Source of the DNA: Flavobacterium gelatinilyticum
GTDB taxonomy: Bacteria > Bacteroidota > Bacteroidia > Flavobacteriales > Flavobacteriaceae
Length of the DNA: 64,000 bases
Direction of reading: 5' to 3'
Assembly (NCBI RefSeq): GCF_027111295.1
Contig: NZ_CP114287.1
Coordinates: 5,766,001 to 5,830,000 of the forward strand
This document shows, one piece after another, positions 4,677-37,190 of this stretch. Position numbers and translations under genes: made by a program. Numbering within the stretch: position 1 is the stretch's first letter; every line of letters starts with the position of its first letter. The notes under the pieces are model-generated. The model searched no databases. It saw only the letters and a program-made list of their open reading frames with translations, and was not told the origin of the DNA.

Positions 4677-7600
4677 ATGGATAAAAAACTACTTTGGGGA
4701 CTGTTGTATTTCTTTAGCAGTCTTTCTCTTTTTGCCGCAACAAACAATTTGAATATTCCCGTTCCGGATTCTGAATATCAGGCGCTGGTAGATTTTTATA
4801 AAGCTACGGGTGAATCCAGCTGGACGAACAAATGGAATACGAAGGAGAACAACCTTCATGAAGTGGCATGGCATGGTGTTACGGTTACAGATGGACACGT
4901 AACAGCGATTGACCTTAACAGCACGAGCAATATTGTGGGTGCGATTCCGGCTTCTTTCGGGAATTTGAAATACCTGAAAACCCTTTCTATGTCGGGTTAC
5001 AGTTATACAAAAGATTTCAGCACAACAGATCTGGGTGTGTTTTCAGAACTGGAAGCTTTAGAATCTCTGGATTTGCGCGATACCAAATTAAAAGGCGCAA
5101 TTCCGGCATCCTGGGGTAAGCTTAAAAAGCTGAAAACGCTTAACTTAAGCAACAACGGGATAACTGGACTTCCGGCAGAATTTGGTCAGATGGAAAGTCT
5201 GGTTACTGTTAATTTATCCGAAAATCAAATTCCGGTTTTAATAAAAGAACTGGAGAATTTAACGGCTTTACGCTCTTTAAATTTGCAATACAACAAAGTA
5301 GGAACTATCGTGGGACTGCTGAACAGTCAGGTTTCGCTTAGTTTACATTATCAGGCACTTAATATTGAAAATCTGATCTACAAGGGAACCGATTTAAAAA
5401 TCGAAAACCTGCCGAACATCGTAACCTACAACCGCGATAAAAATGATTTTTCGGCTAAGAGAAATTTTGTAGTATACCTGCGCGGGAGCCAGATTGGAGG
5501 CGATATTACGATGGCCGAAGATGGAAGCGTAACCATTCCTTCATCGACTCTGGCTTCTTTAAAAAACGGAGACGAATTGTATTTGTACCAGCAGTACGAT
5601 TCACAATCGGGAAACATAATGTATTACAGCCGTATTTATTTTACGAATGTAAAAGTAAATCAGGCAGTTGTTTCAAATGTAGAATATCAGGCGCTTGTTG
5701 ATTTTTACAATGCAATGGGAGGCAGTAACTGGAATAACAAATGGGACATCAACGAAAACAACCTTCATGAAGGTGCTTGGACGGGTTTAAGCATCGAAAA
5801 CGGACATATTACGGGTTTAAATCTAAACAATACAACAAATGTTGCAGGATCGATTCCGGCGTCTTTCGGGAATTTGAAATACCTGAAAACATTGTCGTTA
5901 TATGGCGGCAATTATTCGAAAAATCTAAGCACAACAGATTTAAATGTTTTGTCAGAATTACAATCGCTTGAAACTTTAGATTTAAGTTACAGCCGTGTTA
6001 CCGGTGCAGTTCCGGCGTCATGGAGCAAACTGAAAAAACTGAAAACGCTTAATTTAAGCAACAACACCCTTACAGCTTTGCCGGATGAACTGGGCGAAAT
6101 GGAAAGTCTGGTTACTATAGAAGCGAGATCGAACCAAATTAAAACTATTCCGGTTTCAATAGGAAATCTGGCGAATCTGGTTACTTTAAATTTAAGCGAA
6201 AATCAGATTGAAGTTTTGATAAAAGAACTGGAAAATGCCACGACTTTAAAAAGTTTGAATTTACAATATAACCGAATTGGAAATGTAGCCGGATTACTAA
6301 GCAGCCAGGTTAATATGCAGCTGCATTATCAGGATGTAAACGTAGAAGGTTTAATTTATACAGGCTCTGATGTGGTGGTGCAGACACTGCCTAATTTGTT
6401 TTATTACAACAGAACTAAAAATGATTTCTCGGCCAGAAGACAATATGCGGTTTATGTAAAGGGCAGCCAGACAGGAACCGATATTACGGCAGCGGCAGAC
6501 GGGAGCGTTACGATTCCGGCAGCGTATTTATCATCGTTAAAAACCGGAGATCAGTTTTATCTGTATCAGCAGTACGACTCATCAACCGGAAGTAATTCGT
6601 ATTACTCAAAAGTGTATTTTGTAAACATAAAAGTAGACCAGCCTCAGATTCCGGAAGCGGAATATCAGGCCTTGGTAGATTTTTATAATGCGATGAACGG
6701 TACAAAATGGAATAACCAATGGGATATTGCAGCAAATAATCTTCACGAAGGTGCGTGGTACGGAGTGAGTATCGAAAACGGACATATTACCGGGCTTAAC
6801 GTAAGCAATAATTATAATGTTTCGGGAGCAATTCCGGCTTCGATTTCGGACTTAAAATTTCTTAAAACGCTTTCGATTTACGGAGGAAATTATTCTAAAG
6901 ATCTAAGTACGACTGATCTGGCGGTTTTATCTGAACTGGAATCTCTTGAATCTCTGGATTTAGGCTACAGCAAAATCAAAGGCGATCTTCCGGCTTCGTG
7001 GAATAAACTAAAAAAACTTAAAAGCCTGTACTTAAGCAGTAATGCGCTTACGGCTTTACCTGCAGATATAGGAGCGATGGAAAGCCTGGTAACGGTTGAA
7101 GCCAATAATAACCAGATCAAATCTATTCCGGTTTCAATAGGAAATCTTACCAATCTGGTAACGCTGCAGTTAAGCGACAATCAAATTGGCGTTCTGGTTA
7201 AAGAACTTGAAAACTGTACGGCTTTAAAAACACTGCAGGTTTCCAGTAACAATATTGGCACTGTCGAAGCAATGCTGCCTGCGCAGGTAAGTATTAACCT
7301 GACGTATCAGAATATTACAATCGATAACTTCTTATATCAGGGTACCGATGTAAAAGTAGAAAACCTGCCAAATGTTCTTACGTATACAAGGCATTTGAAT
7401 GATTTTTCGGCACGAAGAAAATTCAATTTGTATTTAAGAGGAAGTGAAGTAGTTTCGAATCTGCAGATGGCAGAAGACGGAAGCATCACAATTCCGGCAA
7501 AGAATCTTTCTTCTTTAAAAACAGGCGACGAATTGTATTTGTACCAGCAGTACGATGGATATTCAGGTAATTCATATTATTCAAGAGTTTATTTTACCAA

Positions 7601-10600
7601 TATCAAAATTGACCAGCCCAAAATTCCAGATGAAGAATATCAGGCTTTAGTCGATTTTTACACGGTAATGAACGGAACAAAATGGAATAATAAATGGGAT
7701 GTTTCGGTTAATAATCTACATGAAGGAGCATGGTACGGCGTAAGTATTGAAAACGGGCATATTACTGGACTAAACCTAAATAACAACAGCTCGGTTGCAG
7801 GAGCAATTCCGGCTTCTATAGGCGATTTAAAATACCTGAAAACGCTTTCACTTTATGGAGGAAGCTACAGTAAAGACCTTAGCACAACCGATTTGAATGT
7901 ACTTTCTGAACTTGAATCTCTTGAATATTTAGATCTTGGTTATTCTAAAGTAAAAGGAGATATTCCGGAATCATGGGGCAGACTGAAAAAGCTGAAAACG
8001 GTTTCTTTATATTATAATGCACTGACTGCACTGCCGGAAGATCTTGGCGGTATGGTAAGTTTAGAAAGTCTGGATTTGTCGTATAACCAAATTAAAAGCA
8101 TTCCGGTTTCTGTTGGAAACCTGACAGCTTTGGTAACTTTAAATCTGTCCAATAATCAGGTTGAAGTCCTTGTAAAAGAACTTGAAAACCTTACCGCTTT
8201 ACGAACTTTAAACGTTACAGAAAACAAAATTTCAAATATTCAGGCCTTACTGCCTAGTCAGGTAAGTATAAATCTGACGTATCAGAAAATCAATGTCGAA
8301 AACTTTCTTTACGAAGGAACCGATGTAAAATTAAGCGGACTTCCAAATACGGTTTTATACAACAGATCTGCTAATGATTTCTCAGCTCAAAGACCTTTTA
8401 GACTTTACATACAGGGCAGTCAGATTGGAAGCAGTGTACGTGTTTCCGGCGATGGAACTTTGACCATTCCGGCGGATTATTTGTCAACTTTAAAAACCGG
8501 AGATGAATTGTATTTGTATCAGGAATACGATGGTTTTTCAGGTGAATCGTATTATTCCCGAGTGTATTTTACCAATGTAAAAGTAGACCAGCCAAAAATC
8601 CCGACCGAGGAATATCAGGCACTGGTTGATTTTTACAACGCAATGGGCGGTGCAAACTGGAATAACAAATGGAATACAGGCGAAAATAACCTGCACGAGG
8701 GCGCATGGTACGGTGTAAGTATCCAGAACGGGCATATTACAGGACTTAACCTTAATAATAACTCGTATGTTTCGGGAGCAATTCCGGCTTCTTTTGGTAA
8801 TTTGAAATTTTTAAAAAATCTTTCCCTTTACGGAGGAAGTTATTCTAAAGATTTAAGCACAACCGATATAAATGTAATTGCAGGACTGGAATCTTTAGAA
8901 ACCCTTGACTTGCGATATACCAGATTAAAAGGAAAAATAAGTTCGTCATGGAGCAAATTGCAGTCTTTAAAAACAGTGTATTTAGGCAATAATACAATCG
9001 AAGATGCAGATGAAGCACTGGCAAAACTACCTCTTTTAAAAACGGTTGATTTTGCAAGCCAGACCATTACAATTCCAACTATTGAGGTAGGAGCAAATGA
9101 ACTGGTAATTGATCTTCCGGTTTTATCGACTTTCCTGTTTAATGCAAACGGAGGTGTCATCAACAACAAAAATCATTTTACTTTATTCATCAATGGCGTT
9201 AACAAAGCGTCTAACTACTCAAACAGCGAAGGAAAATTAATCTTCAAGGACATTGCGTTGTACGGAATCAAACTGAGCGATCAGATCAGAATTGTTCAGA
9301 ATGACGGAGCGGCGCAGGGAACAACAATTAATTATACTCAGGTTGTTTTTGGAAAACCATTGACGGATGAAGAATTCGAAATCCTGAAGAAAATCTACGC
9401 CAGTACAAACGGTGCGCAATGGACTCAGAAATGGGATATTACAGAGAACAAACTTCACGAAGTAAGCTGGTATGGCGTTGGAACCAAAGAAGGACATGTA
9501 GTTTCGTTAAGCTTAGCAGGAAATAATTTGTCAGGAACACTTCCTGCCGAAATTGCAGGGCTGACTTATCTGGAAACTTTAAATCTTCAGTCGAATGCGG
9601 TTGAAGGAACAATTCCGGCTGATCTTTCAAAATTAACGAATCTGAAAACGCTGAATTTACAATCGAATAAATTCACAGGAACAATTCCGGCTTTATACGC
9701 AATTTCAGGTTTAAAGAAACTGTCGCTTGCAGGCAACTTGTTCAAAGGAACGATTCCTGGACATTTAAACGATTTTGATGCTGTCGAGCAGATTGATCTT
9801 TCGAACAACAGTTTTGATGCTTTAGAAAAACCGTTCACTTACGACTTAAACAAAGTATATGTAAACGTAAGAGGGCAGGTTATCGTAAAAGACGAGTACA
9901 TTTATTTAAAAGGTGACGAAATCAATGTTGACATTCCGGCTATTGCTTCATACAACGATGCAGCGCAGGATTACAGTGGAAAATATCAGTTTGAATTACA
10001 AGCCAACAATTTCAAAATATCAGAAGCGGCGGCGGTAGATAATGCACTGACTTTCCCAAATATTGCCATTGCGAATATTCCGGCGGGAGCCAAAATTACA
10101 ATCTGGCAGAAAAACGGAACATCGCAGGGAACGTATTTACAATTTAAAGGAATTGCCGATGGTTCTGAGACTCCGTTGATCGCAGCCGAATACGATGCGT
10201 TAGTTGCCTTTTTCCAAAGTACAGGCGGAACAGGATGGAAAGAACCTTGGGATGTTTCGGCTAATAATCTGCATGAAAAAAAATGGAAAGGAGTTACCAC
10301 AAATGACGGTCACGTAGTATCGATCAATCTTCCCGATAATAACCTGACAGGAAACATCAGTGCAGAATTAGGAAAGTTTACCGAATTACAAAACCTGAAT
10401 TTAACCCGCAACAAATTATCAGGAACAATTCCGGAAAGTGTTTCAAAAATTACGAAACTAAAAACGGTTGATCTTTCAGAAAATGAATTAACCGGAATCG
10501 ATGCGGTCTTTGCTGTAACGGTAAATTTCAAAATCGACCGTCAGAAAATCAATTTAGGCGAACTGCCGCTTACGCTGGATGCTGTATTGAAAGACCAGAA

Positions 10601-11651
10601 ACTAAACCGTTACGATCACACCAATTCATTGTTCAGCACTTCGCAGTCGTACAACATGACGCTGAAAGATAATTTTCAGGTGGTTACGGTTCCAAATGAC
10701 GGAATTAAACTAACGAGTATTTTACGCGAATGGAATGTACCGAATAATCAGACTTTAGAATTAAGACAAATTGCCGGTGCAGCCCGAAACAGTATTTTAA
10801 CCTACACGGTTACGTACAGAGAAGGCGATTCTAACCTGGATGGAATTGTAAACATTCTGGATATTCAGTCTTCACTGAATTATATGTTAGGACAAAAACC
10901 GAACTTTTTCAACTTTGGTGCGGCAAATATCAACCAAGACCAAAACCTGAATGTACTGGATATTATTGCTTTAATTAATAAAATTCAGGCTGGAAACATC
11001 GAAAGACCGGCAAGTACAAAACGTCAGGCAGCAGGAAACGAAGATGTGGTTTTAAGTATTGAAGATGGTATTTTGTACATCGACAATCAGTCAGAAGAAA
11101 CAGCGGCATTTGATATTCGTTTAAAAGACGGAAACAAAAATGAAATCAGGGAAATGTTATCCGACAAACGATTCAGTGTTTCAGTTGGAGAACATGAAGG
11201 CGAGATCAGTATCGCAGGATTTTCAATGGATAAGACATTAAGCGGAAAACAAGCTATTGCAAAATTGCCTGCTGCAACTACTATTATTTCGGCTTTAATT
11301 TCAGACCCGAATGCGCAGGAAATGAGTTTCAGAATTACACAAAAATCTTTAGGAATGGATGACATTGAGGCTGAAGCCAAAGTCAAAGCGCTTTTCAATT
11401 TCCCGAATCCGTTTACAGATACTACTGTAATTAAATATCAAATACCGGAAAATGCCGAAAAAGCAGTGTTGAAAGTAATCGATATGCAGGGAAGAACTGT
11501 AAAAGTGCAGTCTAACCTTGAAGCAGCTGCAGGAAGTCATGAACTTTCGTTCCATCGCGGCGGACTTTCATCGGGCGTATATTTCTACACAATCGAAGTG
11601 CAGACTTCGGGAAATCCGGTGATTTTTAAAGGAAAAATGTTAATACAATAA
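4677..11651 (+). CDS. Giant T9SS-secreted leucine-rich repeat protein with dockerin-like module
   Basis: ATG 4677 gives 2324 residues; an in-frame TTG two codons earlier is less likely. Signal peptide 1-21 (ends LFAAT). Seven modules follow, each opening with EYQALVDFYNAMxGxxW / NNLHEGAWYGV and then plant/bacterial-type LRRs (GAIPASFGNLKYLKTL). The first four also end in a beta-sandwich-like stretch with GDELYLYQQYD and YYSRVYF; the fifth has a diverged version of it. Around residues 2046-2110 there are two dockerin-like calcium loops: DSNLDGIVNILDIQ and the weaker NQDQNLNVLDI. The last 80 residues (NFPNPFTDTT to GKMLIQ) are a type A T9SS sorting domain. The product should cross the outer membrane and be surface-bound or released. 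It is 9 bp upstream of another giant T9SS gene, so they are co-transcribed. Function is unknown; adhesion or substrate binding is likely. Confidence 0.88.
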   Translation: MDKKLLWGLLYFFSSLSLFAATNNLNIPVPDSEYQALVDFYKATGESSWTNKWNTKENNLHEVAWHGVTVTDGHVTAIDLNSTSNIVGAIPASFGNLKYLKTLSMSGYSYTKDFSTTDLGVFSELEALESLDLRDTKLKGAIPASWGKLKKLKTLNLSNNGITGLPAEFGQMESLVTVNLSENQIPVLIKELENLTALRSLNLQYNKVGTIVGLLNSQVSLSLHYQALNIENLIYKGTDLKIENLPNIVTYNRDKNDFSAKRNFVVYLRGSQIGGDITMAEDGSVTIPSSTLASLKNGDELYLYQQYDSQSGNIMYYSRIYFTNVKVNQAVVSNVEYQALVDFYNAMGGSNWNNKWDINENNLHEGAWTGLSIENGHITGLNLNNTTNVAGSIPASFGNLKYLKTLSLYGGNYSKNLSTTDLNVLSELQSLETLDLSYSRVTGAVPASWSKLKKLKTLNLSNNTLTALPDELGEMESLVTIEARSNQIKTIPVSIGNLANLVTLNLSENQIEVLIKELENATTLKSLNLQYNRIGNVAGLLSSQVNMQLHYQDVNVEGLIYTGSDVVVQTLPNLFYYNRTKNDFSARRQYAVYVKGSQTGTDITAAADGSVTIPAAYLSSLKTGDQFYLYQQYDSSTGSNSYYSKVYFVNIKVDQPQIPEAEYQALVDFYNAMNGTKWNNQWDIAANNLHEGAWYGVSIENGHITGLNVSNNYNVSGAIPASISDLKFLKTLSIYGGNYSKDLSTTDLAVLSELESLESLDLGYSKIKGDLPASWNKLKKLKSLYLSSNALTALPADIGAMESLVTVEANNNQIKSIPVSIGNLTNLVTLQLSDNQIGVLVKELENCTALKTLQVSSNNIGTVEAMLPAQVSINLTYQNITIDNFLYQGTDVKVENLPNVLTYTRHLNDFSARRKFNLYLRGSEVVSNLQMAEDGSITIPAKNLSSLKTGDELYLYQQYDGYSGNSYYSRVYFTNIKIDQPKIPDEEYQALVDFYTVMNGTKWNNKWDVSVNNLHEGAWYGVSIENGHITGLNLNNNSSVAGAIPASIGDLKYLKTLSLYGGSYSKDLSTTDLNVLSELESLEYLDLGYSKVKGDIPESWGRLKKLKTVSLYYNALTALPEDLGGMVSLESLDLSYNQIKSIPVSVGNLTALVTLNLSNNQVEVLVKELENLTALRTLNVTENKISNIQALLPSQVSINLTYQKINVENFLYEGTDVKLSGLPNTVLYNRSANDFSAQRPFRLYIQGSQIGSSVRVSGDGTLTIPADYLSTLKTGDELYLYQEYDGFSGESYYSRVYFTNVKVDQPKIPTEEYQALVDFYNAMGGANWNNKWNTGENNLHEGAWYGVSIQNGHITGLNLNNNSYVSGAIPASFGNLKFLKNLSLYGGSYSKDLSTTDINVIAGLESLETLDLRYTRLKGKISSSWSKLQSLKTVYLGNNTIEDADEALAKLPLLKTVDFASQTITIPTIEVGANELVIDLPVLSTFLFNANGGVINNKNHFTLFINGVNKASNYSNSEGKLIFKDIALYGIKLSDQIRIVQNDGAAQGTTINYTQVVFGKPLTDEEFEILKKIYASTNGAQWTQKWDITENKLHEVSWYGVGTKEGHVVSLSLAGNNLSGTLPAEIAGLTYLETLNLQSNAVEGTIPADLSKLTNLKTLNLQSNKFTGTIPALYAISGLKKLSLAGNLFKGTIPGHLNDFDAVEQIDLSNNSFDALEKPFTYDLNKVYVNVRGQVIVKDEYIYLKGDEINVDIPAIASYNDAAQDYSGKYQFELQANNFKISEAAAVDNALTFPNIAIANIPAGAKITIWQKNGTSQGTYLQFKGIADGSETPLIAAEYDALVAFFQSTGGTGWKEPWDVSANNLHEKKWKGVTTNDGHVVSINLPDNNLTGNISAELGKFTELQNLNLTRNKLSGTIPESVSKITKLKTVDLSENELTGIDAVFAVTVNFKIDRQKINLGELPLTLDAVLKDQKLNRYDHTNSLFSTSQSYNMTLKDNFQVVTVPNDGIKLTSILREWNVPNNQTLELRQIAGAARNSILTYTVTYREGDSNLDGIVNILDIQSSLNYMLGQKPNFFNFGAANINQDQNLNVLDIIALINKIQAGNIERPASTKRQAAGNEDVVLSIEDGILYIDNQSEETAAFDIRLKDGNKNEIREMLSDKRFSVSVGEHEGEISIAGFSMDKTLSGKQAIAKLPAATTIISALISDPNAQEMSFRITQKSLGMDDIEAEAKVKALFNFPNPFTDTTVIKYQIPENAEKAVLKVIDMQGRTVKVQSNLEAAAGSHELSFHRGGLSSGVYFYTIEVQTSGNPVIFKGKMLIQ
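4774..9360 (+). repeat. Five long internal coding repeats (about 0.9-0.98 kb) in the LRR gene
   Basis: The module start (AATATCAGGC) recurs at 4774, 5683, 6661, 7636 and 8611. The spacings are 909, 978, 975 and 975 bp, so the later copies have exactly the same length. Many stretches are nearly identical at DNA level, which would permit recombination and size variation of the protein. Confidence 0.85.
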
Positions 11652-11660
11652 ACTGATTAT

Positions 11661-14600
11661 ATGAGACCCAACAAATTTAAAACAACCAAAATACAGTCTT
11701 TTCTGGTCTTTATATTCCTGTTTTTAGGAACATGTATATACGCACAGAATAGTTTAAAAGTATTAGACGCATCAGCCGGACCGGGCGAGAAATCGGTTTT
11801 GCAGATTGACCTGACTAATACCGATGAGGTAGTAGGTGCCGAGTTTACACTTACCGTACCGCAGGGATTGCTGGTAAGTGAAAAAGAAAGCAAAATCATA
11901 GAAAGCCGAAAAGGTGATCATGCAGTGTATGTAAACATCGAAAAGAATAATCCGAGAAATTATCACTTTATTATTCTTTCGCTTTCCAGCACGCCTTTTA
12001 AAGCAAAAAGCGGGACTTTATTAGAAATCCCGATTGAAATTCCTCTAAATTATGCTTCAGGACAAACACACAATTTAGATTTGTCTGGCGTAGTACTGAG
12101 TTCTAAAAATGCAACTGACATTGGTTCGAATCACGTAAACGGAAAACTGACCATTGCAGCGGCACAATTTCCGGATTTAACCGTTTCGGGCATTACTTCG
12201 GCAGAAACCAAAATTTCTCCGGAAGGAAAAATAAATGTATCATGGAAAATTGATAACATTGGTGAGCGAATTGCTTCAGGAGGCTGGATAGAACAAATTA
12301 GTATTGTATCTGAACAAACCGGAATCGAATACAATCTGGGAACCGTTTCGTACGATCAGGATTTAGAAAAAAAACAGTCAGTCAGCAGGAGTGCAGCCTT
12401 TACACTTCCAAAGGTTTTAGGAATTGAAGGCAATGTGAAAATCAAAATAAATGTTGTCGCTAACACCGCTGTAAAAGAACCGGAAGAGTTAAAAGCGAAT
12501 AATAAGGTAACGGCTGTAAGTACAGTTGTATTAGAAAAACGCTTGTATCTGGTTTTTGATAAAAAAATAATCGATGAAAATTCTACAGAAGTAATCCGAG
12601 CAGCATTAACACAAAGCGGAGACAGAAGTGCCGATAAAACATTTGCCCTTACAGCATCTCAAACAGGACAATTACAGTTTGATGCGAGTGTAAAAATTTT
12701 GAAAGATCAGTCGGCAGTTGTTTTTTACATCAAACCAATCGATAATACCGTTACAGATGGAAACAGAACTGTAAAAGTTTCGGTTTCAGGAAACGATTAT
12801 CCGGCAGTTGGAGAAGATATCGAAATTATCGACAACGAATTTTCGGTGATCACTTTAACGCCTTCAAAAAACAGTGCGACCGACGGAGAGACTGTTACGG
12901 TTACGCTAACAGTTGATCTCGCGAAAACCAAAGAAACAAAATTTGCGATTACAGCAGACCAAAGTTCACGATGGACAGTACCTGCAGAAATTACGCTTCC
13001 GGCAGGAAGCAAAACCGCTTCGTTTACCGTTACCGTGAAAAACAATAAAGTTCCTGAACCTGCGGTATTTGGAAAAATTACCGCAAGAGCAGAAGGTTTT
13101 GTGGCCGGCAATACCGAAGTAACTTTAAAAAGTTCGAACATCCCGGCTTTTGAATTAGAAATAAGCCCCGAAACTATTTCCAAAGGAGACGGGGGTTATG
13201 CCACGTATGCTACGATTAAAAGACTGGATAAGTCGGATATAAGCACCAGCATTCGTTTAAAACCAAGTATTGCCAATGCGTTGATTCTGCCGGAAACGAT
13301 TGATTTTCCTGCCAATGTAAATCAGAAGAAATTCAACATTGGAGCCGTAAACAACGGAATCGTTGACGGAACCAAAACCGTAAACGTAGCAGCCGAAGTG
13401 TATATTTCGTCCTGCAATTGTACGGTTCCTGCCGGAACTGCCGGAGCTGTTGTAAGCAAAAGCATTACGATATTAGACAGCAACGGTCCCGCTTTAACGG
13501 TAAAATCGAATCCTTCGACGGTAAAAGCAGGTGTAGAAAAAGCGGCTAAAATCACTATCGCCAGAAATACGGTCGATACCAGTGCCGAAATTGCAGTAAA
13601 ATTATCATCAGATTCACCAACTATTGTTTCGATTCCGGCTTCGGTAACCATTCCGGCTGGAAAAGAAAGCGTTGATGTAGAAATTAATACGATTATCGAT
13701 GTCAATAAAACAGGTGATCAAACCGTTCGTATTCAGGCAGAAGCCAGCGGTTTCAGCTCTGGTTTTGCGTGGATTTTAGTAACCGATCAAAACAAACCGG
13801 ACGCTTTGGTTGAAGCTGTAAAAACAGTGGCAGAGGCTGATGGTGAAGCTTCGGTAGAAATAACTACTTCGATCACCAACCAGGGATTTGCTGTTTTACC
13901 AAAAGGCGCTAAAATCGAATATTTTTTATCAAAAGATAAATCGACTAAAAATGCGGTTCTGATTACGTCTCTGCAAATCGATAAAGACATTGAATCAGGA
14001 AAGAAATTGGATTTCATCAAAACAATCAAATTACCACAACAGGCTGGTGATTATTTCTTAGCTGTTTCAGTAAATTCAGACCAGAAAGTAAACGAATTGT
14101 CGTATACCAATAACGAAGGTTATACAGCAATTAAGCTGTTTTCAGGCTATTCAGCGACAGCTTCGGTATCAAAATCGGTTTACAAATCAGGTGAATTAGT
14201 TGCGATTACAGGATCGGCTAAGCTGACAAACAATTCTCCTGCAGCAAATAAAGAAGTAGAAATTACGATTGCCAATGAAGGGTTTGTTCGTTCGTACAAA
14301 GTAAAAACAAACGCTGCCGGAAACTTCGCGTATGATTTCGAACCTCTGCAGGCAGAAAGCGGTCATTATACCGTAAGTGCAGGTTATCCGGGAACTAAAA
14401 ACGCCGTACAGGCTGAATTTGATATTGTTGGTTTTGAATGGACCAACAAACCATCCGATTACCTAAAATGGGAAGTTGTAACCAAAGTGCCGTACAAAGG
14501 TGAATTCAAATTAAAAAACAACAGCAAAACGCCTTTAACAAACGTAAAAATTGAATTGCCAGCCAATGCCGGATTTACAATTCAGAACGATGCGTTAACA

Positions 14601-17600
14601 TTAGCAGCAGGGCAGGAAGCGGTTTTAAGCTATACAATTCTGGCAGATACGCCATCGGCAGAACAGAAATACTATGAAATCAATTTTAATGTGGTTTCAA
14701 ATGAAGGAGCAAAACTGCCAATTTTAGCGTATTACCATGCCAAAGCACAGACGCCTAAATTACAGGCCAATCCAGTAAGCATTAATACCACAATGATCAA
14801 AGGAACTTCTCGTTTCTACGAATTGGCTATTACCAACACAGGAGCTGTAGAAGCAGAAAAAGTAAAAGTAGATGTTCCAAATCTGGAATGGATGAAACTG
14901 AAAAGTGCCGCCGTAATCGATAAAATTGCTGCGAACGAAACGGTAAAAATCATCTTAGAGTTAATACCGACAGATAAACAGCAGCTTCATGCACCGCTGA
15001 CAGGAAACTTAGCTTTAAATCCGGCTAACGGAGGCGGGGTAAGCGTACCTTTTAAAATCGAAACCGTTTCAGAGTCAACAGGTTCTTTATTAGTAGACGT
15101 TGTCGACGAATATACCTATAATACACAAAGTGCACCGCACGTAAAAGGTGCCAAAGTTACCGTGCGTCACCCGTTCTCTGGAGCTGTGGTGGCAGAAGGT
15201 GTTACCGATGAAAACGGATTATTCAACACCGCTCAGATTCCGGAAGGATATTACACCTTAACAGTTTCAGCAGACAAACACGCAAATTACCAGAATAATA
15301 TTTTAGTTGATCCGGGCAAAGTAACAACGCAGAAAGTATTTATTTCCTATCAGGCTGTAAGTTACGAATGGGTAGTAAAACCAACTGAAATTGAAGACCA
15401 GTACCAGTCGGATTTAGTGGTTAAGTTTGAAACCAACGTACCAAAACCGGTAATTGTTATTGACATTGATAATCCTGTCTTAGATTTAAATGCGGGAGAA
15501 AGCAGAATGAGTTATGCAACCGTTACCAATCATGGTTTAATTGCGTTATCTAACGTGTCATTTAATGTTGACAGCCAGGGAGATTATAAGTTCAAACTTA
15601 TGATTGAAAAGATGGATGTATTAAATGCAAAATCGACGATAATTGTTCCAATTCTGATTACCAGAACGGCTTCGACTGAAAAAAGTACGGCAGCAGGTCA
15701 AAACTGCAGCTATAATTTAATTACACAAGGAACTTATGTGTGCGAAACAGAACAAAATATGGCCGCATTCCAGCCTTATTTTGTACTGACTTGTTCAACT
15801 CCAACTGCACCTGTTGTTGGAGGTGCGCCTAATTTTAATGGAGGCGGTTTTGGACCATTAATTCCTATAGGTCTTGCTATTGGAAATATTGTTACTGAGC
15901 TGCCTACGATTTGCACTAATCCTTGTATAACTTCTACTATTAGTGCAGCAATGGGCTGTTCAAAAATTGTTCCTTTGACTCTTGCTTCTTGTCTTCTTTC
16001 ACTTGCTACTGTGGATAATGACATAATAAATATAACTCTGGCACTTGGCGGTTGTATTCCTTTTGGTGATGCAGGTTGTTATTTTGGACTTGCATCGATG
16101 GTGAAAACCTGTGCGGAACAATTGATTAATGGAAAAAGTACTAAAAACAGTTTCTTGCAATCTAAATATGAAGATTTTCAGGCAATGGCAGATGCTGAAA
16201 CGGCTCTAACTAATAGAATAAAAGCATATTTAGGCAATGACAAGTTATTAGCAAGTCCTAATTTTCAAAATTTCATGAAAGAGGCTGCTTCGAGTCTGGA
16301 TACTGAAAAACCATTTTCTGCGGCAGACATTGCACGAATTAAAGCCGCGCTTTCCGGTACAGATATTACCAGTCAGGAAATTGATAATTTCTGCAGCAGA
16401 TGGAATACTACTTTAGAAGCGTGGAATAAAAACATAAAAGCGCCTAATAGTGAATATCCAAATATCATTAATAAAAATGATATTGAGGAATATGACAGAA
16501 TAAGAAAATCATTAGTTGAACTGACTTCAAAAAGAGGTTTTATCTCTGCAGCAGAATTGTACGAGAATGATCTAAAGGAAATGGAGGAATACGGTAAAGA
16601 ACTGGCCTCTCGATCATCTGTTTGTGCCAGTGTTACGGTTAAGTTCTCTCAAAAAGTAACCATGACCAGAGAAGCTTTCGAAGGAACTTTAACACTAAAC
16701 AACGGAAGTGATGCTAATTCAATCAAAGATTTAAATTTAGATTTACTGATTAAAGATGAAGCAGGAAACGATATGACGCATTTGTTCCAGATCAACAAAG
16801 ATGCTTTCCTTAGCGGAACAGGAATTGTAGGTCCAAACAGCAGTGAGTCAGGAACTGTAATTTTTATCCCGACAAAAGATGCAGCACCAACTGTGCCTAA
16901 ATCATACGCTTTTGGAGGAACGTTATCGTATCTGGATCCAAATACAGGCGAAAGAGTTACGGTACAATTGTTTCCGGTAACCTTAGAAGTAAATCCAAGT
17001 CCGGATTTAGTAATGCATTATTTCATGCAGCGTGATATTTTAGGAGATGATCCGCTGACGGATAAAGTAGAGCCAATGGTTCCGGCAGAAATGGCATTGT
17101 TAATTAAAAATGAAGGATACGGAATTGCCAAAAATGTTCAGGTAGAATCAGTACAGCCTGAAATTATCGAAAACAAAAAAGGACTTTTAATCGATTTTGA
17201 AATCGTAGGAAGCAATTTCAACAACGAACCAAAACAATTGGGATTGCTAAACGTTGATTTCGGAAGTATTGAACCGCAGAAATCGGCTTTAGGGCAATGG
17301 TGGTTTACCAGTACCTTGTTAGGTCACTTTGTAGAATACGATCTTAAAATTAAACATTTAAGCAGTTACGGAAACAAAAACCTGAGCCTGATTAAAGCTT
17401 CATACGTTCACGAATTAATTAAAAGCGTAAAAGTGTACGGAGAGGGTCAGGATAATATTAATGATTTCCTTGTAAATGATATTGCAGATGCCAATGATAC
17501 GCCGGATGCGATTTATTTATCTAATGGCGAAAACGAAGAAGTGTATAAAGTAAATACAGGAACAGTTTCGAATGTAATCTCTCCATCTCAGTTAACCACA

Positions 17601-19949
17601 ACGTTAACGATGGATTCGTCGAAAACAGGCTGGAATTACGGAAATATGGCCGATCCGGGATCAGATAAATACAAGCTGGAAAGGGTAGTAAGAATCAGTG
17701 ATAATCTCGAACTTCCAATCGAAAACTTCTGGCAGACGTTTGTGACCTTAAAAGATGGTCTTGAGCCGAAATACGAAAACAAACTTCATTTCCTTGATAA
17801 AATTTCAGGATTAGAAAAGTATACTTTGTATTACACGCCAATTAATACAAATGTGCCAAAAGTGGAATCGTTTGGAGAAGTTCCTGCCAAAACCACCAAA
17901 GCGGTAGAATCGGTTCAGGTAAACTTTAACAAAGCCATCAACCCGAACACTTTTACAGCACAAAACGTTACACTGATTCATCAGGGGAAAAACATTCCGT
18001 TTGACGACAGTTTAATTGGTAAAGTAAACGATTCGACTTATGTACTGAATATAAAAACGCTGTCAATCGCTTCTGGTTATTATGAATTAACGGTGCAGTG
18101 TGCCGGAATAAAAGATCTTGAAGACAATGAAGGTGTTGAAGGAAAAAGCATTTCGTGGATTCAGATTATAAACGAACTGGGAATTGTTCAGTTTAAGAAA
18201 GATCAGGTAGAAGCACAACCGGTAAACAGCGTTGAAATTACCTTCAACAAATTTGTAAAACCGGTTCAGTTTACCAAAGAAAAACTGACCTTAAACGGAC
18301 AGCCGATTGATAATGTTTCTATTGTAACCGAAGATAATCTGAAATATACCATTGTAGGATTAAGCGAATACAACAAAGAAAGCGGCGAATACGAACTTGC
18401 AGTTGATCTTCCGTCCATAAAAGCAGAAGACAATACAACGGGACTTATTGTACAGGAAATTAAATGGAAAGTAGATATTATAATTCCCGAAGTTGATGTC
18501 TTTACGCCTCAGTATCAGGGAGCCCTTCACAGTCAGAATGTAACCGATGTTCGCATTACGCTGAACAAACCAATTGATACTTTTGATAAAAACTGGATTA
18601 CACTTTACAAAGGAAGTGTGAACCTTAATGCGGATCTGAATGTCGTAAAACAAGACGATTTACATTATTTAGTAACTGGTTTAGGCGGGTATACACAGGA
18701 AGAAGGAGGTTACAAAATAGTAGTAGACCAGACCAGCTTTAAAGATTTGGCAGGAAACTTAGGAACCGGAACGTCAAGCACAATGTGGGAAGTGAAGTTA
18801 GGAAAACCTGCATCACCAGTTAATATGCGTATTACACCTGACAGAGGAGCCTCGCAGACGGATAATATCACATCCGGAACCGATTTATCAATTGCACTTA
18901 AAACATCGGCAGACAAACAAACTGTTGAATTGTATGCTGTAACTCCGGCCGGAAGAACATTGGTAAGCACACAAAATGTTGCTGTGGCAAAAGAAATCGT
19001 ATTTCCAATAAGCGGCTACAGCGGTAAGATTATTTTTGAAGCGGTAGTGTATGACGAATTTGGTAATGCAGGCGATGCTGTAAATGTTGAAACCTATATT
19101 GATGCGGTTGATCTTAATTGTACCATTGTACCATTAAGCCTTAACAACGATTGTTCTGAAACCGATGCTTTAAAAGTGCAGTTTGCCGATGAAATTCTGG
19201 CTTTGGCATTTACAAAAGAGAATTTGATTATCAAATCGGGAGGTATTGCAGTTTCAAATGAAAACCTGACGCTGACTAAGATTTCGGATAAAGAATTTGA
19301 AATCAAAGGTCTTGATAAGTTTACTGGAAGTCATTCAATTGGAATTGATTTATCGAAACTAAACAAAAAATCAAGCGGATTACAAGGTAAAGGAATAGTA
19401 TCAACAGTTTTTGAGGCTTTTGAAAACAATACGGCCCAAATAACAGGAGATATTCTTATTACCGATTCTAATGCGACTGTTACCTATACCGCTGATGAAT
19501 TTATGAGCAAATACATCTGGAATGTTACCGGAGGTGAAATTGTAGAACAGATCAGCAATACTGTTACGATTAAATGGACCGAAAAAGGAACGCAGACCAT
19601 ATCGCTTTTCTATACCACTCCGGCTTTATGCAGCAAAGATGCCTATCTGGAAGTAAAAGTAGATGCCAGTTTATCTGTAGGCGAAAATCCGGAAATAGGA
19701 CCGAAAGGTTTAGTACTGGCTCCGGTTCCAAACAACGGAACGTTTACAGTTCTTTTATCAGGAGATGACGGAATTTTTGAACTCAGTATTTACGATGTAA
19801 ACGGAAAACAAGTGTACAGAGAAAACAAACTGGACATAACAGACGGTTTAGCAAAAGAAATCCAAACCGGAATTCAGTCATCCGGTATGTACTTCTTAGT
19901 ACTGCAAAAACCGGGTAAGGTTTATAAATCTAAATTCTTAGTGAAATAA
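11661..19949 (+). CDS. Giant T9SS-secreted multi-domain surface protein with N-terminal cohesin-like domain
   Basis: 2762 residues. Signal peptide 1-29 (ends IYAQ). Residues 30-165 resemble a cohesin-type beta-sandwich: GEKSVLQIDLTN, VVGAEFTLTVP, and a late hydrophobic strand before NGKLTIAA. Next come a CARDB-like domain (about 170-290), several Calx-beta/Ig-like domains (about 292-700), a second CARDB (710-820), an Ig-like domain, NEW3-like repeats, and a carboxypeptidase-regulatory-like domain (about 1141-1230). About 1347-1487 is a cysteine-rich and Gly-rich segment, followed by a helical region. Three SbsA-type Ig domains (VQVNFNKAINPNTF and similar, 2057-2383), a PKD-like domain and a T9SS sorting domain (LAPVPNNGTFTV to KSKFLVK) close the protein. 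No enzyme domain was recognised. It is 9 bp downstream of the dockerin-bearing LRR gene; a physical pairing of the two is inferred. Confidence 0.85.
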   Translation: MRPNKFKTTKIQSFLVFIFLFLGTCIYAQNSLKVLDASAGPGEKSVLQIDLTNTDEVVGAEFTLTVPQGLLVSEKESKIIESRKGDHAVYVNIEKNNPRNYHFIILSLSSTPFKAKSGTLLEIPIEIPLNYASGQTHNLDLSGVVLSSKNATDIGSNHVNGKLTIAAAQFPDLTVSGITSAETKISPEGKINVSWKIDNIGERIASGGWIEQISIVSEQTGIEYNLGTVSYDQDLEKKQSVSRSAAFTLPKVLGIEGNVKIKINVVANTAVKEPEELKANNKVTAVSTVVLEKRLYLVFDKKIIDENSTEVIRAALTQSGDRSADKTFALTASQTGQLQFDASVKILKDQSAVVFYIKPIDNTVTDGNRTVKVSVSGNDYPAVGEDIEIIDNEFSVITLTPSKNSATDGETVTVTLTVDLAKTKETKFAITADQSSRWTVPAEITLPAGSKTASFTVTVKNNKVPEPAVFGKITARAEGFVAGNTEVTLKSSNIPAFELEISPETISKGDGGYATYATIKRLDKSDISTSIRLKPSIANALILPETIDFPANVNQKKFNIGAVNNGIVDGTKTVNVAAEVYISSCNCTVPAGTAGAVVSKSITILDSNGPALTVKSNPSTVKAGVEKAAKITIARNTVDTSAEIAVKLSSDSPTIVSIPASVTIPAGKESVDVEINTIIDVNKTGDQTVRIQAEASGFSSGFAWILVTDQNKPDALVEAVKTVAEADGEASVEITTSITNQGFAVLPKGAKIEYFLSKDKSTKNAVLITSLQIDKDIESGKKLDFIKTIKLPQQAGDYFLAVSVNSDQKVNELSYTNNEGYTAIKLFSGYSATASVSKSVYKSGELVAITGSAKLTNNSPAANKEVEITIANEGFVRSYKVKTNAAGNFAYDFEPLQAESGHYTVSAGYPGTKNAVQAEFDIVGFEWTNKPSDYLKWEVVTKVPYKGEFKLKNNSKTPLTNVKIELPANAGFTIQNDALTLAAGQEAVLSYTILADTPSAEQKYYEINFNVVSNEGAKLPILAYYHAKAQTPKLQANPVSINTTMIKGTSRFYELAITNTGAVEAEKVKVDVPNLEWMKLKSAAVIDKIAANETVKIILELIPTDKQQLHAPLTGNLALNPANGGGVSVPFKIETVSESTGSLLVDVVDEYTYNTQSAPHVKGAKVTVRHPFSGAVVAEGVTDENGLFNTAQIPEGYYTLTVSADKHANYQNNILVDPGKVTTQKVFISYQAVSYEWVVKPTEIEDQYQSDLVVKFETNVPKPVIVIDIDNPVLDLNAGESRMSYATVTNHGLIALSNVSFNVDSQGDYKFKLMIEKMDVLNAKSTIIVPILITRTASTEKSTAAGQNCSYNLITQGTYVCETEQNMAAFQPYFVLTCSTPTAPVVGGAPNFNGGGFGPLIPIGLAIGNIVTELPTICTNPCITSTISAAMGCSKIVPLTLASCLLSLATVDNDIINITLALGGCIPFGDAGCYFGLASMVKTCAEQLINGKSTKNSFLQSKYEDFQAMADAETALTNRIKAYLGNDKLLASPNFQNFMKEAASSLDTEKPFSAADIARIKAALSGTDITSQEIDNFCSRWNTTLEAWNKNIKAPNSEYPNIINKNDIEEYDRIRKSLVELTSKRGFISAAELYENDLKEMEEYGKELASRSSVCASVTVKFSQKVTMTREAFEGTLTLNNGSDANSIKDLNLDLLIKDEAGNDMTHLFQINKDAFLSGTGIVGPNSSESGTVIFIPTKDAAPTVPKSYAFGGTLSYLDPNTGERVTVQLFPVTLEVNPSPDLVMHYFMQRDILGDDPLTDKVEPMVPAEMALLIKNEGYGIAKNVQVESVQPEIIENKKGLLIDFEIVGSNFNNEPKQLGLLNVDFGSIEPQKSALGQWWFTSTLLGHFVEYDLKIKHLSSYGNKNLSLIKASYVHELIKSVKVYGEGQDNINDFLVNDIADANDTPDAIYLSNGENEEVYKVNTGTVSNVISPSQLTTTLTMDSSKTGWNYGNMADPGSDKYKLERVVRISDNLELPIENFWQTFVTLKDGLEPKYENKLHFLDKISGLEKYTLYYTPINTNVPKVESFGEVPAKTTKAVESVQVNFNKAINPNTFTAQNVTLIHQGKNIPFDDSLIGKVNDSTYVLNIKTLSIASGYYELTVQCAGIKDLEDNEGVEGKSISWIQIINELGIVQFKKDQVEAQPVNSVEITFNKFVKPVQFTKEKLTLNGQPIDNVSIVTEDNLKYTIVGLSEYNKESGEYELAVDLPSIKAEDNTTGLIVQEIKWKVDIIIPEVDVFTPQYQGALHSQNVTDVRITLNKPIDTFDKNWITLYKGSVNLNADLNVVKQDDLHYLVTGLGGYTQEEGGYKIVVDQTSFKDLAGNLGTGTSSTMWEVKLGKPASPVNMRITPDRGASQTDNITSGTDLSIALKTSADKQTVELYAVTPAGRTLVSTQNVAVAKEIVFPISGYSGKIIFEAVVYDEFGNAGDAVNVETYIDAVDLNCTIVPLSLNNDCSETDALKVQFADEILALAFTKENLIIKSGGIAVSNENLTLTKISDKEFEIKGLDKFTGSHSIGIDLSKLNKKSSGLQGKGIVSTVFEAFENNTAQITGDILITDSNATVTYTADEFMSKYIWNVTGGEIVEQISNTVTIKWTEKGTQTISLFYTTPALCSKDAYLEVKVDASLSVGENPEIGPKGLVLAPVPNNGTFTVLLSGDDGIFELSIYDVNGKQVYRENKLDITDGLAKEIQTGIQSSGMYFLVLQKPGKVYKSKFLVK

Positions 19950-19954
19950 AAAGT

Positions 19955-19988
19955 AAAAAGAGATGTCAATTGACATCTCTTTTTTTTT
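19955..19988 (+). terminator. Rho-independent terminator after the giant surface protein operon
   Basis: Perfect inverted repeat: arms 19955-19969 and 19970-19984 around GATGTCAATTGACATC, with flanking A-run and T-run. It starts 5 bp after the stop codon and ends in eight T. Confidence 0.9.
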
Positions 19989-24383: not shown

Positions 24384-26039
24384 ATGACACCATTTAAACG
24401 TTTTTATAATTTACTTACGCTGGATAAGCGCGATGTATACCAAATTATATTTTATGCTGCTTTCGCAGGTTTAGTCAATCTTTCCCTGCCTTTGGGAATT
24501 CAGGCCATTATTAATTTTATTCAAAGCGGACAGGTGAGTGTTTCCTGGATTGTGCTGGTAATTCTGGTAACAATCGGGGTTGGTTTTGGCGGAATCCTTA
24601 CCATTTTACAGCTGCGAATTGTAGAAAACCTGCAGCAGCGAATTTTTGTGCGTTCTTCTTTTGAATTTGCATACCGAATGCCCTTGATTAAATTTAAGGA
24701 AATGTACTCTGAATATGCTCCCGAAAAAGCCAACCGCTTTTTTGATACCTTAATGGTTCAAAAAGGAACTGCAAAATTACTTCTTGATTTTTGTACTGCA
24801 TTTTTGCAGGTAGGTCTGGGAATTATATTATTGGTTTTGTATCATTCATTTTTTATGGTGATCGGACTTTTGTTTATTGCCATTTTGTATGTGATTTTTA
24901 AATTTTCGTACAAAGATGGTCTTGAAACCAGTTTAAACGAATCAAAATTCAAATATAAAGTAGCGGCCTGGATTCAGGAAATCGCGCGTAATCGTGAAAG
25001 CTTTCGTAAAAAAGGAGGTTTTGACTACGCTCTTGAACGAAATGACGGCTACGTTTCTCAATATGTCAATTACCGTGAAAAACACTTTCAGGTAATGAAA
25101 AAACAATATATTCAGCTGACTATTTTTAAAGTTATTGTTACAGCTGCCTTATTGTCTATAGGTGGTTTTCTGGTAATTCACCACCAAATGAACATAGGGC
25201 AGTTTGTGGCAGCTGAAATTGTAATTGTACTACTTATCAACTCGGTAGAAAAAATTATATTTGGTTTGGAATCTTTTTATGATGTTCTGACTTCTGTTGA
25301 AAAAATAGGACAGGTTACAGATCTTGAAATTGCCTGTATTCCGCAGACTTCTGCTGTAAGCGAAACAGGAATTACAATCGAAACCGAAAGTATTGCTTAT
25401 AACTATCCGGAACACAATAAAAAAGCCCTTAAAAACATCAACCTGAAAATATCTCAGGGCGAGAAGATTATTTTAAGAGGAACAAACGGAGCCGGAAAAA
25501 GCACCTTATTGCGACTTCTGGCCGGATTGCTTGAACCGGAAAGCGGCGCCATGTATGTAACCGATAATTTTATGAACCGCCTGAACGAAGACAGTTACAG
25601 AGCACAAGCCGGTACGTATTTGCAGGGCGATACCCTTTTTGCAGGAACGATTAGAGAAAATATTCTTTTTGGGAATGAAGCTTTAAATAATGACGATTTA
25701 AAATGGGCTTTAGATAATGTATGCCTGACACAGGATATTAAAACTTTCCCGAACGGACTTGAACATCAGGTTCATCCGGGAGGTCATGAGCTTTCGGCTT
25801 CAGATATACAAAAAATACTTTTGGCCAGAAGTATTGTTCACAAACCCAATATATTGTTCCTTGAAGATCCTGTTGATAAAATGGACGAACTGACATCAGC
25901 AAAAATTGTTGATTTTTTACTTTCCCCGGAAAATGACTGGACGGTAATCGTAACTTCTAAAAATGATCTTTGGAAGAATAAATGCGATCGTATGATAACT
26001 ATTGCCGACGGAAAAATTAGTAACGACATAAAGCTTTAA
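24384..26039 (+). CDS. Type I-like ABC exporter (fused permease-ATPase) with degenerate ATPase motifs
   Basis: 551 residues: an exporter-type membrane domain with about six helices (20-310) and no N-terminal C39 peptidase, then a nucleotide-binding domain (about 330-551). Walker A is intact (GTNGAGKSTLL) and the Q-loop Gln is present (YLQGD). However, the signature reads ELSASDIQ instead of LSGGQ, the Walker B end reads LFLEDP instead of LLDEP (acidic pair reversed), and the H-loop His is replaced (VIVTSKND, Lys at its position). With HlyD and TolC genes directly downstream (gap 5 bp, then overlap) it should be the inner-membrane engine of a tripartite exporter. How it hydrolyses ATP with these changes is an open question. 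Some Bacteroidota relatives may share the variation. Confidence 0.85.
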   Translation: MTPFKRFYNLLTLDKRDVYQIIFYAAFAGLVNLSLPLGIQAIINFIQSGQVSVSWIVLVILVTIGVGFGGILTILQLRIVENLQQRIFVRSSFEFAYRMPLIKFKEMYSEYAPEKANRFFDTLMVQKGTAKLLLDFCTAFLQVGLGIILLVLYHSFFMVIGLLFIAILYVIFKFSYKDGLETSLNESKFKYKVAAWIQEIARNRESFRKKGGFDYALERNDGYVSQYVNYREKHFQVMKKQYIQLTIFKVIVTAALLSIGGFLVIHHQMNIGQFVAAEIVIVLLINSVEKIIFGLESFYDVLTSVEKIGQVTDLEIACIPQTSAVSETGITIETESIAYNYPEHNKKALKNINLKISQGEKIILRGTNGAGKSTLLRLLAGLLEPESGAMYVTDNFMNRLNEDSYRAQAGTYLQGDTLFAGTIRENILFGNEALNNDDLKWALDNVCLTQDIKTFPNGLEHQVHPGGHELSASDIQKILLARSIVHKPNILFLEDPVDKMDELTSAKIVDFLLSPENDWTVIVTSKNDLWKNKCDRMITIADGKISNDIKL

Positions 26040-26044
26040 TCATC

Positions 26045-27400
26045 ATGCTCAATATATCTAAAGAAAATAATGTAATTATCACTCCGGGCAAATACAAATC
26101 GATTACGAGTGTTGCCCGAAGACCTCATTATAAAATTTTAAACAGGGTTATAATTGGATTTTTGATTTTTGCGGTAGGATGTCTTTTCCTTCCGTGGACT
26201 CAGAATATTTCAGGAAATGGTTCTGTTACCACCTTAAAACCGGATCAAAGACCTCAGACTGTTCATAATGCCATTGCCGGAAGAATCGAAAAATGGTACG
26301 TGCAGGAAGGTGATTATGTAAAGAAAGGTGATACAATTGTTTTTATTTCTGAGGTAAAAGAAGATTACCTTGACCCGAATCTTGTAGGAAACACCAAACA
26401 ACAGGTCGATGCCAAAAAGATGGCGGTAGAATCCTACGGAGATAAAGTAAATTCTCTGGAAGTTCAGGCAAAATCGCTTAACACAGAAAGAGAATTAAAA
26501 CTGCAGCAGGCCCAAAACAAAATCAGACAGGCACAGCTGAAAATCAAAAGCGACAGTATGGATCTTGAAGCGGTAAAAACGCAGTTAAGAATCGCTACAA
26601 CACAATTTGAACGTTCGACCGCATTAAACAAAGAAGGCTTAAAACCACTTACCGATGTAGAGCAGAAACGATTAAAACTTCAGGAATCTGAAGCTTATAT
26701 CATCACACAGCAGAACAAATTGTTAAGCAGTAAAAACGAACTGATCAATGCAAGAGTCGAAATCAATCGTATTACGGCTGAGTATGCAGAGAAAATTTCG
26801 AAATCAAGAAGCGATAAATTTACGGCTTTAAGCACGCAATACGATACTGAAGCACAAGTAAATAAGCTTGAAAATCAATATGTAAATTACAGTCTTAGAA
26901 ACGGATTGTATTACATTACAGCACCTCAAAGCGGTTATGTAAACCGTGCTCTGCTGGCTGGTTTGGGAGAAACAATTAAAGAAGGAACGCCAATTGTAAG
27001 TATCATGCCGGCAAGTTATGATATTGCCGTAGAAACGTATGTAGATCCTATTGATCTGCCATTGGTGCATCGCGGAGCAAAAGTCCGTGTATGGTTCGAC
27101 GGATGGCCGAGAATTGTATTTTCGGGATGGCCTGGCTTATCATACGGAACGTATGGCGGAAAAGTAGTGGCGATCGAAAACTTTATTAGTGCAAACGGAA
27201 AATACAGAGTTCTTATTTCACCTGACGGTCCGGATAATAAATGGCCGAAAGAACTAAGTATTGGAGCCGGAGCACAGAGTATCGCTTTATTAGAAACAGT
27301 TTCTGTATGGTATGAAATATGGCGTAACCTAAATGGTTTCCCGCCAAATTATTATATGTCAGATGAAAAAGAAGCAAAAAATGGTAAAGACAAAAAATAA
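26045..27400 (+). CDS. HlyD-family membrane fusion protein
   Basis: 451 residues. A short cytoplasmic N-terminus is followed by one membrane helix (about 35-52, VIIGFLIFAVGCLFLPW), a lipoyl half (HNAIAGRIEKWYVQEGDYVKKGD), a long alpha-helical hairpin (about 125-275), the second lipoyl half (ITAPQSGYVNRAL) and a beta-barrel C-terminus. This is the periplasmic adaptor between the ABC exporter and the TolC channel. It starts 5 bp after the ABC gene and overlaps the TolC gene, so the three are translated as one unit. No substrate-specific feature was seen. Confidence 0.9.
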   Translation: MLNISKENNVIITPGKYKSITSVARRPHYKILNRVIIGFLIFAVGCLFLPWTQNISGNGSVTTLKPDQRPQTVHNAIAGRIEKWYVQEGDYVKKGDTIVFISEVKEDYLDPNLVGNTKQQVDAKKMAVESYGDKVNSLEVQAKSLNTERELKLQQAQNKIRQAQLKIKSDSMDLEAVKTQLRIATTQFERSTALNKEGLKPLTDVEQKRLKLQESEAYIITQQNKLLSSKNELINARVEINRITAEYAEKISKSRSDKFTALSTQYDTEAQVNKLENQYVNYSLRNGLYYITAPQSGYVNRALLAGLGETIKEGTPIVSIMPASYDIAVETYVDPIDLPLVHRGAKVRVWFDGWPRIVFSGWPGLSYGTYGGKVVAIENFISANGKYRVLISPDGPDNKWPKELSIGAGAQSIALLETVSVWYEIWRNLNGFPPNYYMSDEKEAKNGKDKK

Positions 27401-37127: not shown

Positions 37128-37190
37128 CAGATTACATGCAAAATGGGTAACTCTGTTATTCAGGGTTATCCGTTTTTAAAACAAACACAA

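Follow-up and report, generated by a model that had tools for sequence, protein, structure and literature searches.

A dockerin and a cohesin on adjoining type IX secretion cargo genes of Flavobacterium gelatinilyticum: a probable clasp between two giant surface proteins

Cohesin-dockerin pairs are among the tightest known protein clasps and are best known from cellulosomes, which break down plant fibre. Clostridium perfringens has a cohesin-like module (PDB 2jh2) that likewise has a dockerin partner and belongs to secreted glycosidases, which are not cargo of the type IX secretion system (T9SS). Here we describe a locus in a 64,000-nucleotide stretch of the Flavobacterium gelatinilyticum genome (contig NZ_CP114287.1, positions 5,766,001 to 5,830,000; hereafter the window), where two adjoining genes encode giant T9SS cargo proteins. 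The first, gene A, encodes a leucine-rich repeat (LRR) protein with a dockerin close to its carboxy-terminus, and the second, gene B, encodes a protein that starts with a cohesin. Our analysis suggests that the two genes are co-transcribed and that the dockerin of A probably binds the cohesin of B outside the cell, in a calcium-dependent clasp between two T9SS-exported proteins.

Cohesin-dockerin systems outside the cellulosome are already known (Peer et al. 2009, as cited in the accessible passages of PMC9012536 and PMC8542988), and the A-B locus falls among them in having both modules and no cellulosomal context. It differs from these systems, including that of the Archaeoglobus cohesin (PDB 2xdh), in that one dockerin and one cohesin are encoded by neighbouring genes that both carry a T9SS tail, and in that the dockerin precedes a degenerate cohesin, which we term domain X. 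In Candidatus Stygibacter (Cloacimonadota), according to the accessible passages of PMC8542988, secreted enzymes, S8 and C25 peptidases among them, bear dockerins at their C-termini, and the scaffold that holds the cohesins ends in a conserved attachment domain. The A-B pair is similar in combining a C-terminal dockerin on a secreted protein with a cohesin protein that ends in an attachment domain. However, the same passages describe one large scaffold with tandem cohesins, carbohydrate-binding modules (CBMs) and several enzymes, whereas A and B are matched one to one, contain no CBM or enzyme domain, and use an LRR protein as the dockerin partner. Compared with the clostridial cellulosome (PDB 6kgc, 2vn5 and 1ohz), A and B have no CBM or glycoside hydrolase by Pfam and belong to Gram-negative T9SS export. 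A scaffoldin with repeated cohesins is absent, as the genome contains one cohesin above the Pfam cut-off and domain X sits in A; dockerin-bearing polysaccharide-degrading enzymes are likewise absent, the sole dockerin above the cut-off being on an LRR protein with no Pfam enzyme domain. The dockerin and cohesin proteins of anaerobic methanotrophic (ANME) archaea, as presented in the available part of PMC9012536, are archaeal and carry S-layer domains and several cohesins per protein, with no gene-pair rule described. From the excerpts available of three further papers, neither cohesins nor dockerins turned up in the genome of one Bacteroidetes member that uses the T9SS (PMC5831590), Melioribacter carries a dockerin on none of its cellulase genes (PMC3534657), and cockroach-gut Bacteroidales have dockerins above the cut-off for which a partner is not named (PMC10266427). 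We found no description of the A-B gene pair in titles, abstracts or retrieved passages, a search that mostly excluded subscription papers, and regard the pair as a new variant of the known non-cellulosomal cohesins and dockerins.

As a fragment the dockerin of A scores 25.6 bits against PF00404 (cut-off 22.9); the score is 24.6 bits in the genome scan and only 20.5 bits when the whole of protein A is scanned. The module also matches a dockerin of known structure (PDB 6kg9, E 0.0012), and its predicted structure contains three helices (24-34, 41-47 and 57-69) with a predicted local distance difference test score (pLDDT) of about 82. From sequence and model the module is two EF-like loops plus helices, and would be expected to bind calcium. 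An earlier model-made reading of the letters alone, the sequence-only reading, had called the second loop degenerate, and this holds, with N in place of D at position 1; the D is present in 19 of 22 A proteins. The cohesin of B scores 25.9 bits against PF00963 (cut-off 24.1) as a fragment and 25.0 bits in the genome scan, and has the cohesin beta-sandwich fold; it is absent from the listing when the whole of protein B is scanned. Both proteins end in a T9SS type A sorting domain, with 35.8 bits for A and 31.5 bits for B against PF18962 (cut-off 27), and 34.6 and 32.5 bits against TIGR04183 (cut-off 23). The sequence-only reading had proposed dockerin-like loops before the sorting domain of A, a cohesin-like module at the start of B and T9SS export of both, and the profile searches, with matches over the cut-offs, bear this out. 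Besides the LRR families, Pfam finds Dockerin_1 and Por_Secre_tail in the A open reading frame (ORF). Gene A has an alternative TTG start at 4671, in place of which we took the ATG at 4677.

Table 1. Features of the A-B locus (window coordinates)
Feature	Position	Strand	Remarks
Gene A, LRR protein	4677..11651	+	2324 aa ORF; dockerin, degenerate cohesin, T9SS type A tail
Dockerin type I module, gene A	10824..10989	+	PF00404, PDB match, model
Dockerin calcium loop 1 (predicted)	10827..10862	+	DSNLDGIVNILD; complete; similar in relatives
Dockerin calcium loop 2 (predicted)	10926..10961	+	NINQDQNLNVLD; N instead of D at position 1
Domain X, with a degenerate cohesin fold; after the dockerin and before the sorting tail	11040..11348	+	
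T9SS type A sorting domain, gene A	11400..11648	+	PF18962, TIGR04183
A-B spacer, A stop to B ATG	11652..11660	+	9 bp
Gene B	11661..19949	+	2762 aa ORF; N-terminal cohesin, CARDB, carboxypeptidase-regulatory and Big domains, T9SS tail (Pfam)
Signal-peptide-like start, gene B	11661..11744	+	by eye only: basic start, hydrophobic run, YAQ
Cohesin module, gene B	11754..12155	+	
T9SS type A sorting domain, gene B	19722..19946	+	PF18962, TIGR04183
13-pair terminator-like hairpin directly after B	19955..19984	.	pattern scan; listed on - strand; near-palindromic

The single cohesin and the single dockerin above the cut-offs in this genome lie in the adjoining genes A and B, and the only further Pfam cohesin match, of 12.1 bits, is in a different gene. 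Among 398 congeneric genomes, the window genome included, B is present in eight, and A (E<=7.4e-69) is found in the same eight, adjacent to B in every case. A scan of named genomes returned nine loci, including those of F. johnsoniae, F. anhuiense, F. tistrianum, F. hydatis, F. hibisci and a Prevotellaceae metagenome-assembled genome (MAG), all with A directly upstream of B; as six of these nine genomes are already in the set of 398, there are 11 distinct carriers overall. The adjacency from which a pairing had been proposed is therefore constant in these carriers, and no homologue that keeps one module of the pair without the other occurs in the genomes examined. The distance from the A stop to the next ATG is 10-17 nt at eight of the nine named-scan loci, with a nearer ATG in L178, and co-transcription of A and B is likely. 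That the pair is kept together in related bacteria suggests that the clasp probably links both proteins outside the cell. Gene A is also the sole dockerin above the cut-off in the five named Flavobacterium genomes examined for dockerins, and B the sole match to our cohesin profile A11 (E<=0.01) in those five and two more. Conceivably the neighbour is not the main partner, and B instead scaffolds dockerin-bearing proteins from other cells or species, or A is received by foreign cohesins; the cohesin and dockerin scans of the window genome, covering this genome only, leave room for such partners. We consider this highly improbable, as the neighbour is the sole candidate above the cut-offs in this genome and in the examined carriers.

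Besides the window proteins themselves, A has 20 close relatives and one distant, and B has 31 close and four distant. Comparing the window protein and its close relatives (21 A and 32 B proteins, with the distant P0033-P0036 and P0058 dropped), identity to window A is 0.81 in the dockerin, 0.80 in the stretch preceding it, 0.49 in the linker, 0.57 in domain X and 0.60 in the tail, and identity to window B is 0.82 in the cohesin, 0.56 in the signal peptide and 0.52 in the tail. The conservation of dockerin and cohesin fits a constrained interface, short of proof. In profile comparison the B cohesins match other N-terminal cohesins with a probability of 84 (E 8e-6) and tail cohesins with a probability of 14 (E 0.002). 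One distant B relative, P0033, combines in a single chain an N-terminal match to the cohesin part of B with a dockerin at its C-terminus. One pair of the proteins (P0015 and P0053) has the source label Pseudomonas shirazensis and close relatives among Flavobacterium proteins, and probably comes from a mislabelled record.

Domain X complicates this picture. It was overlooked in the sequence-only reading, which stands as to the modules, the tails and the neighbouring position of A and B, and its presence makes a pairing inside one chain possible. Its relation to cohesins was revealed only by structure, where it has the cohesin fold; it has no Pfam match, and profile comparison of X with the B cohesins and with the tail cohesins found nothing. 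The dockerin of A could bind X in its own chain, forming a compact, calcium-locked stem before the tail, while the B cohesin binds something else or nothing. We think this unlikely, as X is less conserved than the dockerin and escapes recognition by both Pfam and profile comparison, and the cohesin gene directly after A would be left unexplained. We also folded the dockerin, X, tail and cohesin as one chain (36 rows), made possible by the A stop codon being in frame with B; the first three were confident, whereas the cohesin mostly fell below pLDDT 50, and the model gives no information on an interface.

The Prevotellaceae MAG bears directly on this choice, as its A protein keeps the dockerin without X. 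At this locus (L179, JAISVA010000037.1, 1-2301) the LRR gene, whose 5' end is missing at the contig end, stops five residues past the Pfam dockerin match (40.2 bits), and the product has neither X nor a sorting tail. The next ATG follows 17 nt past the LRR stop; its product keeps the T9SS tail (45.9 bits) and has a cohesin 52% identical to that of the window. That the dockerin and the neighbouring cohesin are kept despite the loss of X and the tail speaks more for a clasp between A and B than for one inside A. It is possible that the LRR protein is displayed via its tailed cohesin partner; the MAG encodes 22 T9SS tails above the cut-off. On another contig of the same MAG (L192, 3-12099) a second dockerin gene is followed by a cohesin gene. 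The first ORF (1632 aa) has an internal cohesin match of 56 bits to profile A11 and a dockerin near its end, and the second (2402 aa, incomplete at the contig edge) has an N-terminal cohesin match of 81 bits to the same profile. An X-like domain and a tail are discernible in the dockerin ORF by reading only, and PF18962 at E<=0.001 does not list it. This locus possibly encodes a chain of cohesin and dockerin proteins.

A second pair of the same plan is present within the genus. In four of the 398 congeneric genomes the dockerin region has weaker matches (E 8e-13 to 2.7e-11), each located in an ORF of about 1370 aa. By Pfam, the two of these ORFs that were scanned (G208 and G706) join a subtilase to a dockerin and a T9SS tail, and the remaining two have nearly identical ends. 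The gene directly after each of the four starts with a signal-peptide-like stretch and encodes an N-terminal cohesin and cadherin repeats. As fragments the N-terminal cohesins of these partners score 37.8, 35.0, 35.0 and 43.6 bits (cut-off 24.1), and they do not appear in the whole-protein Pfam listings. Further cohesin-like domains were found in the partners with a home-made profile that includes some of those sequences; one of two such fragments had no Pfam match and the other reached 14.9 bits, under the cut-off. By Pfam the subtilase-type pair is unrelated to A and B outside the modules, and has the same dockerin-then-cohesin order. The absence of an enzyme partner noted from the sequence therefore stands for the A-B pair and fails for this analogous one. 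In one protein (L128, 3880-8910) five home-made-profile matches, of which the first passes the Pfam cut-off and another scores 14.9 bits, stand together with cadherin repeats in a scaffold-like arrangement; the cohesin-cadherin gene of L129 contains a run of N.

Across the phylum, 112 of 395 genomes contain a cohesin above the cut-off. We examined 36 cohesin loci, the best match of 30 genomes and six extra from genomes of the same class (32 genomes in total), with a home-made dockerin model built from six seed segments in three iterations. A dockerin was found in the same ORF at 11 loci, one of these matches scoring just 14 bits, and only in a neighbouring ORF on the same strand at another 11. 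At every one of the latter 11 loci the dockerin ORF comes first, upstream of the cohesin ORF. Measured between stop-to-stop ORFs, one pair is 210 bp apart and ten are 4-70 bp apart or overlap, two pairs that overlap by a few bases being counted as neighbours.

This recurrence argues against a further explanation, that the dockerin is a calcium-stabilised spacer ahead of the sorting tail and the cohesin an adhesive sandwich, the two being neighbours as members of one adhesin operon and not as binding partners. Such an arrangement would accommodate the slightly degenerate loop 2 of the window species and the dockerin-like modules of the genus that have no neighbouring cohesin. However, the dockerin-then-cohesin order is found in two genus pairs that are unrelated outside the modules, in another pair of the MAG and in 11 of the 36 phylum loci, and the Flavobacterium carriers examined have one dockerin above the cut-off (own genome and five more) and one cohesin (own genome and seven more). 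Taken together, these observations make the explanation very doubtful.

Beyond the possible pairing with domain X, several observations weigh against a clasp between A and B. The Pfam scores lie close to the cut-offs, and among the three carriers in a scan of 249 congeneric genomes only the window cohesin passes (22.2 bits in G136 and 20.7 in G004). Scanned as fragments, the cohesin of L134 passes with 26.2 bits, that of L069 stays below with 21.6 bits, and the Prevotellaceae cohesin has no match to PF00963. Nor are the modules the best conserved parts of their proteins, as about 26% of equal-length stretches in A are conserved better than the dockerin and about 20% in B better than the cohesin. 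No dockerin was found in the same or an adjoining ORF at 14 of the 36 phylum loci; among these, L138 and L164 begin close to the start of their contig, and in L137, L144 and L156 a dockerin ORF lies 2.1-4.1 kb upstream. At one of the same-ORF loci (L169) a further dockerin ORF is located 1.3 kb downstream. The modules are unequally distributed in the genus, with a dockerin above the cut-off in 22 of the 249 genomes and a cohesin above the cut-off in just three. Around one of these cohesins (G152, L076) the 12 kb examined contain no dockerin, and none was found with the home-made models at the six genus cohesin-like loci L071-L076; within the cohesin-like ORF of L071, Pfam gives a dockerin match of 17.5 bits, under the cut-off. 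Finally, we examined 12 loci with other dockerins above the cut-off, from 12 of the 18 such genomes that carry neither pair, and none (0/12) had a cohesin in a neighbouring ORF. Contig ends cut into four of these stretches, in L188 downstream of the dockerin; L181 has a weak 12-bit cohesin match within the same ORF, and L190 resembles a SusC-type protein. A dockerin-like module alone thus does not imply an adjoining cohesin.

Proteins at L180, L182-L184 and L186-L189 share a C-terminal dockerin-like double calcium loop, which mostly follows a shared module (HRNxxxTWSA...YDF...) and by reading has no recognisable sorting tail past the loops. Among their genomes a cohesin match at E<=0.1 occurs only in G225 (L189). 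These ends possibly represent a separate kind of C-terminal domain. Matches to PF00404 at E<=0.01 occur in 99 of the 249 genomes and were rejected as a dockerin count, many lying in ORFs of about 1000-1070 aa; two of them (L044 and L048) appear, by reading only, to be SusC-type loops.

T9SS type A cargo either stays anchored through its C-terminus or is cleaved there. In the clasp that we favour, A and B would leave the cell via the T9SS, and because T9SS anchors its cargo C-terminally, the long chain of immunoglobulin-like domains in B would carry the cohesin at its free tip. Protein A would use its near-C-terminal dockerin to select and clasp this N-terminal cohesin in a calcium-dependent manner, so that A may form a head on the tip of B with its LRR part facing outward. 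Where A retains its own tail, both proteins may be anchored and cross-linked instead. If correct, a conserved one-to-one T9SS pair would represent a modular way of joining giant surface proteins in aerobic Bacteroidota, and would hint at what dockerin proteins that otherwise lack an explanation might do. More tentatively, Bacteroidota in general may build two-part surface structures from dockerin-then-cohesin pairs, in which an exchangeable head (an LRR protein, a subtilase or others) is carried on an anchored, cohesin-tipped stalk. A tailless head, as in the Prevotellaceae MAG, would then be displayed only via its partner, reaching or staying on the surface solely through the cohesin protein and hitch-hiking on T9SS display. 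We think this broader scheme possible rather than likely; if the clasp is real, the A-B system offers a simple test of tailless cargo display via a partner.

The hairpin after B (Table 1) comes from a pattern scan that returned 27 sites against 13.3 expected, and is a match of pattern only. A promoter scan gave 55 matches against 48.6 expected and was not used. Upstream of A, the opposite strand encodes two response regulators and an ORF that by reading resembles a histidine kinase, and downstream of B it encodes a Crp-type regulator. Elsewhere in the window, a 2044-aa M4 metallopeptidase with a MAM domain and a T9SS tail (30993-37127) is followed by an outer-membrane barrel gene (37143-37829), and an ABC transporter with an HlyD-type adaptor, resembling type I secretion, lies at 24384-27400.
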